A DNA stretch of 64,000 nucleotides from Chloroflexota bacterium (GTDB lineage: Bacteria; Chloroflexota; Limnocylindria; P2-11E; CF-107): NCBI GenBank assembly GCA_005881435.1, contig VBHP01000029.1:1-64000 (forward strand), in the 5' to 3' direction. A program made the position numbers and the translations under genes. The notes below the pieces were generated by a model that did no database searches, was not told the origin of the DNA, and was given only the letters and a program-made list of their open reading frames with translations. Each line of letters opens with the position of its first letter. Position 1 is the first letter of the stretch. This document shows, piece after piece, positions 50,419-54,758 of this stretch.

Positions 50419-50455
50419 AACCGATCTCGCTGGCGCACCATTAGATGGAGAAGTG

Positions 50456-52549
50456 ATGCTGCGACGCTTCGCGCTCGCGTTCGGCGCGCTCCTCGTCGTG
50501 ACGATCGCGTGCGAGGCGCCGGCGCCGAAGCCCGAAGATGCCGCACGCATCTACGCCGACGCGTGGCAGGGCGCGAGCTACACCGCGATGTACGACCTGC
50601 TGACTCCTGCCGCGCAGAAGCGCGTCGCGCGCGACGCGTTCGTGACGCGCTACGGAAATATCGCTGACGAGATGTCGCTGACGGGCGTCGCGGTGACGCC
50701 CGGCCTGGCGACGCCGGAACAGGATGCATCGCAGAAGCCTATCGACGGTCGCGTCGATGTGCCGCTCACGGTGCAGTACCGCACCACAAAGGTCGATCCC
50801 TTCACGCGAACGGTGCCACTCATCCTGGTGCGGCAGCCAGACAAGACCTGGAGGGTCGATTGGACGCCCGAGGCCATCGTCCCGGGCCTCTCCGGCGACC
50901 GGCTGGTCCGGATGACACGGCAAGTGCCGACGCGCGGGCGCATCATCGCCCGCGACGGGTCCGAGCTTGCGACGTTCGGCGACGCCTTCGAGGTCGGCGT
51001 CGTGCCCGGTCAGATCAAGGACGAGGCGGCGATGCTGCAGAGCCTCGCGCCGCTGGTCGGCCTGCCGGAAGCGGAGATCAAGAAGCGCTACGCCAACGGA
51101 CAGCCGGACTGGTTCATGCCGGTTCGGGTCATGCCGCCCGCGACGCCGGCCGACGTGCGTCAGAAGCTCGGCCTCATCGAGGGCGTGCAGCTGCGGCCGG
51201 CGCGGGTGCGGCAATACCCGCAAGGCACGCTCGCTGCGCACGTCATCGGGTACGTCGGCGTGATCACTGTCGAGGAGTTGCAGAAGCTCGGGCCGAAGGG
51301 CTACCAGGACGGCGACCTGGTGGGCAAGACCGGCTTGGAGCAGACGCTCGAAGACGTTCTCGCCGGCACCTTCGGCTGGCGGCTCGGAATCGTCGCGCCG
51401 GATGGCACGCAGACGGCGATCCTCGGTGAGCGCGTGGCGGAACAGGGCCAGGACGTGCAGCTCTCGCTCGACATCACCTTGCAGCGGGCGGCGGAAGCCG
51501 CGCTCGCCCCGGAGCCGAAAGCGGCGGTGGTGGTCGAGGATCTGAATACCGGCGAGATACTCGCCATTGCCTCGCGACCCAGCTTCGATCCGAACGCGTT
51601 CGCCGGCGGCGACGTGGCCACGACCTCGCGGTACCTCACCGACGCGACGCGCCCACTGTTCGATCGCGCCACCTTCGGGCAATACCCGACCGGCTCGTCG
51701 TTCAAGATGATCACGTCGTTCGCCGCGCTCCGAGAGGGCGTGCTGCAACTTGGCGAAAAGGTGCCGTGTCCGGCCGTCTGGACCGGGTACGGCGACAAGT
51801 ACAAGCAGCTCAACCACGAGACCGGCGACCTCGGCCCGATCGATCTTCACACCGCGCTGTCGCGCTCGTGCAACACCTTCTATTACGAGCTCGGAAAGCG
51901 ACTGAACGACAAAGACCAGCACCTGCTGCCGAGCACCGCCAAGTCGTTCGGGCTGGGCAAGGCGACCGACATCGACTACGTCCTCGAGGCCGAGGGCTTC
52001 GTGCCGACGCCGGAGCAGCCGGTGCCCGGCACAGCGGCGGATCGCGTCTGGCTTCCCGGCGACGCGACGAACCTGGCGATCGGGCAGGGGCAGCTGCTTG
52101 CGACACCGCTACAAATGGCGAATTACGTCTCCGCCGTGCTCAACGACGGCACCCTACTCAAACCTCGTCTGGTGCTGAAAATTCAGAAGCGCGACGGGAC
52201 CGTGGTGAAGATGTTCGAGCGCGCCGAGCTGGGCAAGGCGAACACGCGACCTCAGGACTTCGCCGCGGTACGCGACGGCATGCGCGGCGTCGTCGCCGAC
52301 CGCGACGGCACCGCATATTTCCCGTTCCTGGGCTTTTCCGTGCCGGTGCTCGGGAAATCCGGTACCGCCGAGACCGCCGTCGGCAAGCCGGATGGCTGGT
52401 TCATCGCTGGCGCGCCCTACGGCACTCCCACAGTGGCGGTCGCAGCCCTCGCGGAGGAAGTGATCGAACGGCCGGGAACGTTCGCCTCGGTGAACTCCGC
52501 CGCGATCGCCCGCAAGACGCTCGCTGCGGCGCTGCACGTGTCGCCCTGA
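50456..52549 (+). CDS. Penicillin-binding protein transpeptidase, lipoprotein, PBP2a-like architecture
   Basis: About 697 residues. Residues 1-20 are a lipoprotein signal with lipobox VTIAC. Then an NTF2-like MecA_N domain (about 25-145), a PBP dimerisation domain (about 150-320) and the transpeptidase domain with motifs SSFK (415-418), SCN (472-474) and KSGT (635-638). It cross-links peptidoglycan outside the membrane. The lipid anchor replaces the usual membrane helix. Domain order matches PBP2a/PBP3 of Firmicutes that show low beta-lactam affinity; whether that applies here is unknown. ATG 50456 follows GGAG. Confidence 0.9.
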   Translation: MLRRFALAFGALLVVTIACEAPAPKPEDAARIYADAWQGASYTAMYDLLTPAAQKRVARDAFVTRYGNIADEMSLTGVAVTPGLATPEQDASQKPIDGRVDVPLTVQYRTTKVDPFTRTVPLILVRQPDKTWRVDWTPEAIVPGLSGDRLVRMTRQVPTRGRIIARDGSELATFGDAFEVGVVPGQIKDEAAMLQSLAPLVGLPEAEIKKRYANGQPDWFMPVRVMPPATPADVRQKLGLIEGVQLRPARVRQYPQGTLAAHVIGYVGVITVEELQKLGPKGYQDGDLVGKTGLEQTLEDVLAGTFGWRLGIVAPDGTQTAILGERVAEQGQDVQLSLDITLQRAAEAALAPEPKAAVVVEDLNTGEILAIASRPSFDPNAFAGGDVATTSRYLTDATRPLFDRATFGQYPTGSSFKMITSFAALREGVLQLGEKVPCPAVWTGYGDKYKQLNHETGDLGPIDLHTALSRSCNTFYYELGKRLNDKDQHLLPSTAKSFGLGKATDIDYVLEAEGFVPTPEQPVPGTAADRVWLPGDATNLAIGQGQLLATPLQMANYVSAVLNDGTLLKPRLVLKIQKRDGTVVKMFERAELGKANTRPQDFAAVRDGMRGVVADRDGTAYFPFLGFSVPVLGKSGTAETAVGKPDGWFIAGAPYGTPTVAVAALAEEVIERPGTFASVNSAAIARKTLAAALHVSP

Positions 52550-52718: not shown

Positions 52719-53186
52719 ATGGCGACAGACAAGCCCGTCTACGTGTCCGCCGAAGGGCTCGCGAAGCTCGAGGAAGAGCTCGAGCACCTGCGCACCGAGC
52801 GCCGCAAGGAAGTCGCCGAGCGTATCCACTCGGCCATGGAATTCGGCGACTACTCCGAAAACTCGGAGCTCGAGGACGCCAAGAACGAGCAGGCGTTCAT
52901 GGAAGGTCGCATCTTGACCCTCGAGCAGATGCTCAAGAACGCTGTCGTCATCGATCAGAACGGTCATCACGACAAGGTCGAGCTGGGAAGTCACATCGTC
53001 GTCGAGGTCGACGGCGAGCGTGAGAACTACACCGTTGTCGGATCGGCCGAAGCCAATCCGGCTGAGGGTCGTATCAGCAACGAGTCGCCGGTCGGTCGCG
53101 CCTTGCTCGGGCATCGCGCCGGCGACAAGGTCCGAGCGGTCGTCCCGGCAGGAGAGATAGATATGAAGATCGTGGCGGTGCGATAG
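52719..53186 (+). CDS. greA: Transcription elongation factor GreA
   Basis: 155 residues. N-terminal coiled coil with the acidic tip SAMEFGDYSENSELEDAKNEQAFMEGRI (about residues 41-68), then the FKBP-like C-terminal domain with SPVGRALLGHRAGDKVRAVVP. It enters the RNA polymerase channel and triggers cleavage of backtracked RNA. Strong Shine-Dalgarno GGGAGG. Followed after 3 bases by the lysyl-tRNA synthetase. Confidence 0.96.
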   Translation: MATDKPVYVSAEGLAKLEEELEHLRTERRKEVAERIHSAMEFGDYSENSELEDAKNEQAFMEGRILTLEQMLKNAVVIDQNGHHDKVELGSHIVVEVDGERENYTVVGSAEANPAEGRISNESPVGRALLGHRAGDKVRAVVPAGEIDMKIVAVR

Positions 53187-53189
53187 ACG

Positions 53190-54758
53190 GTGTTCTGGGC
53201 GGACGAGCTCGCGCGGCATGTGCCGCCGGGCCAGCCGCAGGTGGTGAACGATTCGAAGACGCCATCCGGAAGCATTCCGATCAGCAGCCTGCGCGGCCCG
53301 ATCATTCACGACGCCATCACCCGTGCCTTACGCGCGGCCGGGGTCACCGCGACGTTCCTCTATGGCAGCGACGACGTGGATCCGATGGACAGTCAGTCGA
53401 TGAAGACGGATGCGGCCATCGCGCCGCATATGGGGAAGCCGCTGTACGCGATCCCGGCGCCGGAAGCTGGCGGCACCGACTTTGCCGATCTGTACACGAA
53501 CCGTTTCCTGTCGTCGTTCCCGGAGTTGGGGCTGCATCCCGACCAGCTGTATCGCATGCGCGATCTGTATCGCGACGGCAAGCTCGACGCGTCGATCGAC
53601 CTGGCGCTGCGCAACGCCGACGTGGCCCGCGAAGTGCTTGCGCGCGTCGCGAAGGTGAACAAGGACGCGGGCTACTTTCCGCTGCATGTCATCTGTGAGA
53701 ACTGCGGGCGTATCGGCACGACGAGGGTCACGTCGTACGACGGTCGAGAAGTCACCTACGAATGCCGCAAGGATCTGGTGTCCTGGGCCGAGGGCTGCGG
53801 TCACTCCGGGAAGACATCGCCGTTCGGCGGCCGCGCGAAGCTCCCGTGGAACTTCGAATGGTGCGCGCAGTGGGATGTGTTCGGCGTGACCATCGAGGGC
53901 TGCGGCAAGGACCTGGCGACCGCCGGCGGCTCGCGCGACCGTTCCGACGAGTTGTTCCGCGCGATCTGGAAGAAGGAGCCGCCGATCCGGGTGACATATG
54001 AGTTCGTCACCGTCGCCGGAAAGAAGATGTCGACCTCACACGCGGAGGCCTGGCGTCACCTCGGCGCCGCCGCGCATGAGATCGTGGAGCTGCTGACCGG
54101 CGAGATCGTTCGCTTTCTGATGCTCCGCACGCGGCCGTCGTCGACGATCGAGTTCGATCCCAGTGGGGACCGCATCCCAAAGCTGTTCGACGAGTACGAC
54201 CGCGCGCAAGATGCGTATCTGAACGATCCCGCCAGTGATCTCGGCCGCATCTACGCCATGTCGCAGCTGTCCACGAAGGTGCAGACGGGGTTTCGGGTGC
54301 CATTCGGCCTGCTGGCGAATTGGCTGCAGATGCCGCATCTGGATCCGAAGGCGCAGGCCGAGCAGCTCGTGGGCCGCAAGCTGACCGACTGGGAGACGAA
54401 TGAGCTGGCCCGTCGCATCGCCGTCGCGCGCGTGTGGCTGGAACGGTGGGCGCCGGAGCAGGCTCGCTTCAGCGTCGCCACCGCTCTCCCGGAGGCGGCG
54501 CACGAGCTCAACGAGCGCCAACGCGAGCTGCTGCGGCGGCTGATGCCGTTCGTCGGGGACTCCCTCGGTGCGGAGGAGCTTCAGGCGAAGATCTACGAGC
54601 TGAGCCGCGAGCTCGGCATCGAGTCGAACGCGGTCGCATTCGCCGCCGTGTACCTCGCGTTCATCGGAAAGCCGCATGGTCCGCACGCCGGCCGACTCCT
54701 GGCGTCGCAGAATCGCGAGTTCGTCCGCCGGCGCCTGGAGGAGGCGGCGCGCGCATGA
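53190..54758 (+). CDS. lysS: Lysyl-tRNA synthetase, class I (archaeal type)
   Basis: 522 residues of the class I LysRS family, unrelated to the class II enzyme most bacteria use. Rossmann catalytic part with the HIGH-region SKTPSGSIPISSLRG (23-36), where Ile-Pro-Ile-Ser replaces the usual His-x-Gly pattern, and KKMSTS (278-283). A CENC and later CGH cysteines (about 169-204) suggest a zinc knuckle. The C-terminal part is the all-helical anticodon-binding cage. Charges tRNA-Lys. GTG start 3 bases after greA; its stop overlaps the GH57 start as ATGA. Confidence 0.9.
   Translation: MFWADELARHVPPGQPQVVNDSKTPSGSIPISSLRGPIIHDAITRALRAAGVTATFLYGSDDVDPMDSQSMKTDAAIAPHMGKPLYAIPAPEAGGTDFADLYTNRFLSSFPELGLHPDQLYRMRDLYRDGKLDASIDLALRNADVAREVLARVAKVNKDAGYFPLHVICENCGRIGTTRVTSYDGREVTYECRKDLVSWAEGCGHSGKTSPFGGRAKLPWNFEWCAQWDVFGVTIEGCGKDLATAGGSRDRSDELFRAIWKKEPPIRVTYEFVTVAGKKMSTSHAEAWRHLGAAAHEIVELLTGEIVRFLMLRTRPSSTIEFDPSGDRIPKLFDEYDRAQDAYLNDPASDLGRIYAMSQLSTKVQTGFRVPFGLLANWLQMPHLDPKAQAEQLVGRKLTDWETNELARRIAVARVWLERWAPEQARFSVATALPEAAHELNERQRELLRRLMPFVGDSLGAEELQAKIYELSRELGIESNAVAFAAVYLAFIGKPHGPHAGRLLASQNREFVRRRLEEAARA

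Follow-up and report, generated by a model that had tools for sequence, protein, structure and literature searches.

Can a class I synthetase that has lost its HIGH motif still serve as the housekeeping lysyl-tRNA synthetase (LysRS) of a bacterial cell? The HIGH motif is near-universal and ranks with the most ancient catalytic signatures of translation. The question is raised by a gene at positions 53190–54758 of the forward strand of the window, the 64,000-nucleotide stretch of Chloroflexota DNA analysed here. This gene has a GTG start and encodes a full-length class I LysRS (LysRS1) of 522 aa. Directly upstream, on the same strand, is greA, which encodes a transcription elongation factor (52719–53186; NF001263, 177.5 bits, over the cut-off). 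A penicillin-binding protein gene (50453–52549) precedes greA, and a GH57 family gene lies downstream of the LysRS1 gene. The initial annotation, made from the sequence alone, had placed an archaeal-type class I LysRS with an altered HIGH motif in the greA-lysS position. The window's genome is a draft assembly of 2.9 Mb that is 92% complete, and every genome compared with it is also a draft assembly.

The identity of the enzyme was confirmed by profile, structure and fold searches. The product matched PF01921, the class I LysRS family, at 244.3 bits (cut-off 27) and the NCBIfam profile lysS_arch, TIGR00467, at 306.8 bits (cut-off 147.55). Its sole PDB relative by sequence was 1irx, a solved class I LysRS (E 5e-53). 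The AF2 model (pLDDT 90.5) also had 1irx as its best PDB match (TM 0.84/0.86, E 9.5e-36), and the predicted fold contains a Rossmann catalytic core and a C-terminal helical domain as in 1irx. These Pfam, NCBIfam, PDB and fold checks excluded an annotation by name alone. Membership in class I is assigned here from the full-length match and not from the HIGH catalytic signature, H-x-G-x, in place of which the window enzyme reads PISS.

The HIGH region aligned without a gap, as DSKTPSGSI-PISS-LRG in the window, DSKTPSGTV-HVGS-LRG in relatives and TPSGYVHVGN in 1irx; therefore, HIGH positions 1 and 3 are P30 and S32. The altered site, residues 30–33, lies at 53277–53288 on the forward strand, where HVGS is canonical in the class. 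Sequence comparison placed the conserved DSKTPSG (residues 21–27, 53250–53270, forward strand) immediately N-terminal to it and found the KMSTS signature (residues 279–283, 54024–54038, forward strand) intact. Both the missing His-x-Gly pattern and the intact KMSTS had been read correctly in the initial annotation. A sequencing or assembly error behind PISS was ruled out since 26 genes from separate genomes agree, and a misaligned motif was ruled out since no gap separates the invariant DSKTPSG from LRG. We also ruled out that HIGH had shifted and its His moved elsewhere, since no newly gained His is shared by all enzymes of the order; family f2 has H17, H121 and H270, which are absent from the window enzyme. 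In the AF2 model, helix alpha-1 spans residues 31–49 with P30 at its start, where a proline would be tolerated. The equivalent helix of a canonical relative (G032, HVGS) is predicted at residues 29–47, which is the same start given a numbering offset of 2.

The altered site is shared by the window's whole order. Our sample of the order had 29 genomes, 27 with a LysRS1 match and 26 with a gene covering the HIGH site. His1 was absent in 26/26 (24 Pro, 2 Leu), and position 3 was Ser in 23/26 and Gly in 3/26 but never His. Position 4 varied (S, G, A, H, N), giving the variants PISS, PISG, PISA, LISN, PIGH and PFGH. Gly3 occurred only together with His4, as PIGH or PFGH, in three enzymes (L015, L017 and L023) located in two distinct regions of the tree, a pattern suggesting that P-x-G-H may be an alternative solution in these enzymes. 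The rest of the class served as an outgroup of 88 LysRS1 sequences, with His1 in 86/88 and Gly3 in 88/88. A more distant LysRS1 from another Chloroflexota family read HLGN in 9/9 sequences. The motif is therefore a variant confined to the order and not the standard form of the class or of distant Chloroflexota LysRS1. A Pro-specific pattern scan of 400 Chloroflexota genomes gave matches in nine order genomes and in three places elsewhere, and those three look like chance since the matched DNA has no DSKTPSG coding context.

Next, we examined the history of the motif and of its place behind greA. When the HIGH columns were left out of the alignment for the tree, the altered enzymes grouped in one clade (SH-aLRT 97) with canonical outgroups, and the window protein was sister to the remaining altered enzymes. 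The Patescibacteria outgroup has the canonical His and Gly, so the HIGH loss is derived. On this tree, the loss arose once, inside the window's order. By the same tree, two individual enzymes from elsewhere in the class lost His1 separately, to Thr in G038 (L135, PSGTATAGS; T-A-G-S) and to Asn in G474 (L088, PSGTVNVGS; N-V-G-S). In neither genome did a class II LysS exceed the cut-off, as expected if the LysRS1 subtype tolerates the loss.

LysRS1 was found in 145/151 genomes of the class and in 53/53 of the good ones. Class II LysS was found in 53/55 sampled Chloroflexota genomes outside the class, and greA was in the examined upstream flank of 18/30 of their class II LysS loci; the initial annotation had named class II as the usual bacterial enzyme, often beside greA. 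In a Chloroflexota family outside the class (f22; G085, G093, G243, G333, G498), the class II LysS match is split in two, with profile positions ~323–358 unmatched, suggesting a divergent or inserted middle part throughout the family. greA was upstream of LysRS1 at 27/27 order loci and at 79/86 testable class loci. The exceptions (L151, L152, L155, L156, L159, L160, L167) are all in family f5, with genomes of 1.0–1.2 Mb. One genome, G482, has two different LysRS1 genes (L095 and L096), both HVGS, perhaps from a mixed assembly (5% contamination). These distributions fit an old, class-wide event in which class I LysRS took over the locus of the class II enzyme, with the HIGH loss much later. The proposed non-homologous replacement is thus supported, with the correction that it would be class-wide, older than the HIGH change and separate from it. 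The label archaeal-type holds at the family level only; the nearest relatives found of the window LysRS1 are Chloroflexota and Patescibacteria enzymes, where the comparison outside Chloroflexota covered two Patescibacteria sequences and 1irx. Transfer of LysRS1 among bacteria is well described (PMC1475646). A class I LysRS in bacteria is not itself new; what is new here is that the motif was lost, and not the enzyme class or position.

We then asked if the altered enzyme is the only LysRS available to the cell. The window's genome contains one PF01921 gene over the cut-off. No class II LysRS (TIGR00499) was found over the cut-off in this genome; the best match, 71.6 bits against 427.6, was an AspRS-like locus, and the sole PF00152 match reads as AspRS. 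Genes for tRNALys with CUU and UUU anticodons are present. The genome also has two tRNA-Trp genes, both with a CCA anticodon (L199 and L205, on contigs C109 and C120). LysRS1 was present in 10/10 well-assembled order genomes, and it occurs once per genome in the order, always behind greA. A class II LysS over the cut-off was not found in 60/61 relatives. The exception, G028, has a greA-lysS pair on contig C61 (L034:926–2988), with a class II LysS of 585 bits, in addition to a separate greA-LysRS1 locus. G028 is 66% complete with 3% contamination, so C61 is likely, not proven, to be a foreign contig. The greA on C61 is at most 53% identical to any other greA compared and 49% identical to that of the window, and the greA adjoining the LysRS1 of G028 is 69% identical to the window greA. 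The case is ambiguous, and G028 may have a foreign contig or be a rare genome with both LysRS classes.

Close pairs within the altered LysRS1 had a dN of ~0.04–0.2 against a dS of 0.4–0.85, and P30 and S32 were maintained via different synonymous codons. These patterns indicate that the altered enzymes are under strong purifying selection. From the sole-gene status and the constraint, we concluded that the altered enzyme most probably is the housekeeping LysRS. Overall, we consider it probable that this is a housekeeping and apparently sole LysRS, that HIGH was lost once in the ancestor of the order, and that the enzyme is still active without the HIGH His.

How such an enzyme might work is suggested by the residues that are kept and those that changed. 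Invariant core residues are K23, S26, D62, D64, D67, G239-K240-D241, R249, E271, K279, M280 and S283, of which K279, M280 and S283 of KMSTS were invariant in 111 sequences. K23 lies five residues after the beginning of strand beta-1 (for which N20 is named) and seven before HIGH position 1; it is fixed in the class and in both Patescibacteria sequences, and not in 1irx or the distant Chloroflexota LysRS1. Two candidate compensations were found on the forward strand. Residue 72 (53403–53405) is K in the window and K or R in 26/26 order genes, and it is Leu in 87/88 of the class outgroup. R124 (53559–53561) is Arg in 25/26 order genes and Ser in 88/88 of the outgroup. Also, A225 changed to Cys in all 25 order genes covering the position. 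The class-conserved TPDA was lost in the order, in the same stretch as the Leu to K/R72 change, and a helix at 72–78, adjoining this site in the G032 model, was not predicted in the window enzyme. Of 145 columns highly conserved in the outgroup, 24 changed in the order, and the pairing of K72 and R124 with the HIGH loss is therefore not specific.

In the mechanism that we propose, the order ancestor would have undergone His1 to Pro and Gly3 to Ser in a single loss and retained the other class I elements (the DSKTPSG loop, D62/D64/D67, GKD 239–241, GGSR 246–249 and KMSTS). K23, fixed beforehand in the class and the two Patescibacteria sequences, could have made His1 partly redundant, and K/R72 and R124, which appeared on the branch where HIGH was lost, would have completed the change. 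The backbone and S26/S32 may hold ATP at the N-terminal end of helix alpha-1, and the transition-state charge may be borne by the KMSKS lysine and by basic residues presumed to lie near the cleft. The window enzyme would then most likely form lysyl-adenylate and charge tRNALys. Compensation by K23, K/R72 and R124 is what we infer from residue conservation. Two published results count against activity: mutation of His1 in several class I enzymes lowers activation ~1000-fold, and a fit to adenine accounts for the strong conservation of Gly3 (PMC10485003). That the whole order depends on a class I synthetase without the HIGH His, and mostly without the Gly, through an ATP-phosphate site rebuilt with these three residues has, in our judgment, about an even chance of being correct.

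Other explanations were weighed against this reading. The protein could be a paralogue-like or regulatory relic that is no longer the housekeeping LysRS, with an unseen class II LysS doing the work, perhaps as in G028. The class II lysS behind a second greA on contig C61 agrees with this, and the HIGH loss alone suggests lost catalysis. We consider a relic very unlikely since the other order genomes, several of them 90–97% complete, have no class II LysS, and LysRS1 is single-copy, lies behind greA, keeps KMSKS and has a dN/dS well below 1. The weight of G028 is also reduced by its incompleteness, its contamination and a C61 greA distant from all others compared.

Ordinary drift is another possible explanation, in which this LysRS1 subtype never strongly needed His1 and the motif decayed neutrally with no specific compensation. 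This could account for three separate His1 losses in the class to differing residues (P/L, T, N) and for the variable position 4 in the order. We find drift doubtful, as Pro at position 30 and Ser at position 32 are nearly fixed in the order even as their codons change synonymously, Gly3 occurs only with His4, which suggests constraint, and the outgroup keeps His1 and Gly3 almost throughout. By analogy with IleRS2 G/AXHH and mupirocin, the HIGH change could also have been selected as resistance to a natural ATP-site inhibitor of LysRS1. An altered HIGH as a resistance mechanism has a direct precedent in IleRS2 (PMC10485003), and the change has become fixed, along with alterations in several conserved columns on the same branch. 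The order enzymes do not have the swapped His at position 3 that IleRS2 has, and resistance appears improbable. A natural inhibitor that acts specifically on class I LysRS is not known to us, which also counts against it.

If the altered LysRS1 is an active housekeeping enzyme, an essential and apparently sole synthetase can dispense with HIGH, mostly without a relocated His, and the absence of HIGH is not always a safe ground for calling a synthetase inactive. The enzymes of the order would be natural test cases for how HIGH can be replaced. The stepwise intermediates (PISS, PISG, PISA, LISN, PIGH and PFGH, along with the separate T and N) make the replacement directly testable by mutagenesis. 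In the open-access literature, we found no description of an altered-HIGH LysRS1 clade, no report of a PISS-type LysRS motif or of a class I synthetase without HIGH, and no papers on LysRS in Limnocylindria or Eremiobacterota.

The window enzyme resembles known LysRS1 (PF01921, TIGR00467, 1irx) in its full-length match, predicted fold, KMSKS and other core residues. The order differs at HIGH positions 1 and 3, whereas the outside relatives checked have H-x-G except for two single position-1 exceptions. IleRS2, likewise a class I synthetase with a housekeeping role, has a natural change in HIGH that is fixed in clades. In its G/AXHH motif, positions 1 and 3 are swapped with the His kept, giving mupirocin hyper-resistance at little catalytic cost, and the same swap kills IleRS1 (PMC10485003). 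The first His of IleRS2 reappears at position 3 and takes over the role, whereas 23/26 LysRS1 of the order have no motif His. The exchange was described as "adopted exclusively in IleRS2", where IleRS2 was set against IleRS1 (PMC10485003). The LysRS1 described here would be a second and different case of HIGH exchange, fixed throughout one order of uncultured Chloroflexota. Bacterial TrpRS uses TIGN in the place of HIGH (PMC10201369) and is likewise an active class I enzyme with a residue other than His at position 1. TrpRS has a hydroxyl at position 1 and keeps the Gly at position 3, whereas the order LysRS1 has Pro or Leu at position 1 and mostly Ser at position 3. The published natural HIGH variants that we found, IleRS2 and TrpRS, keep either a His or the Gly, and most LysRS1 of the order keep neither.
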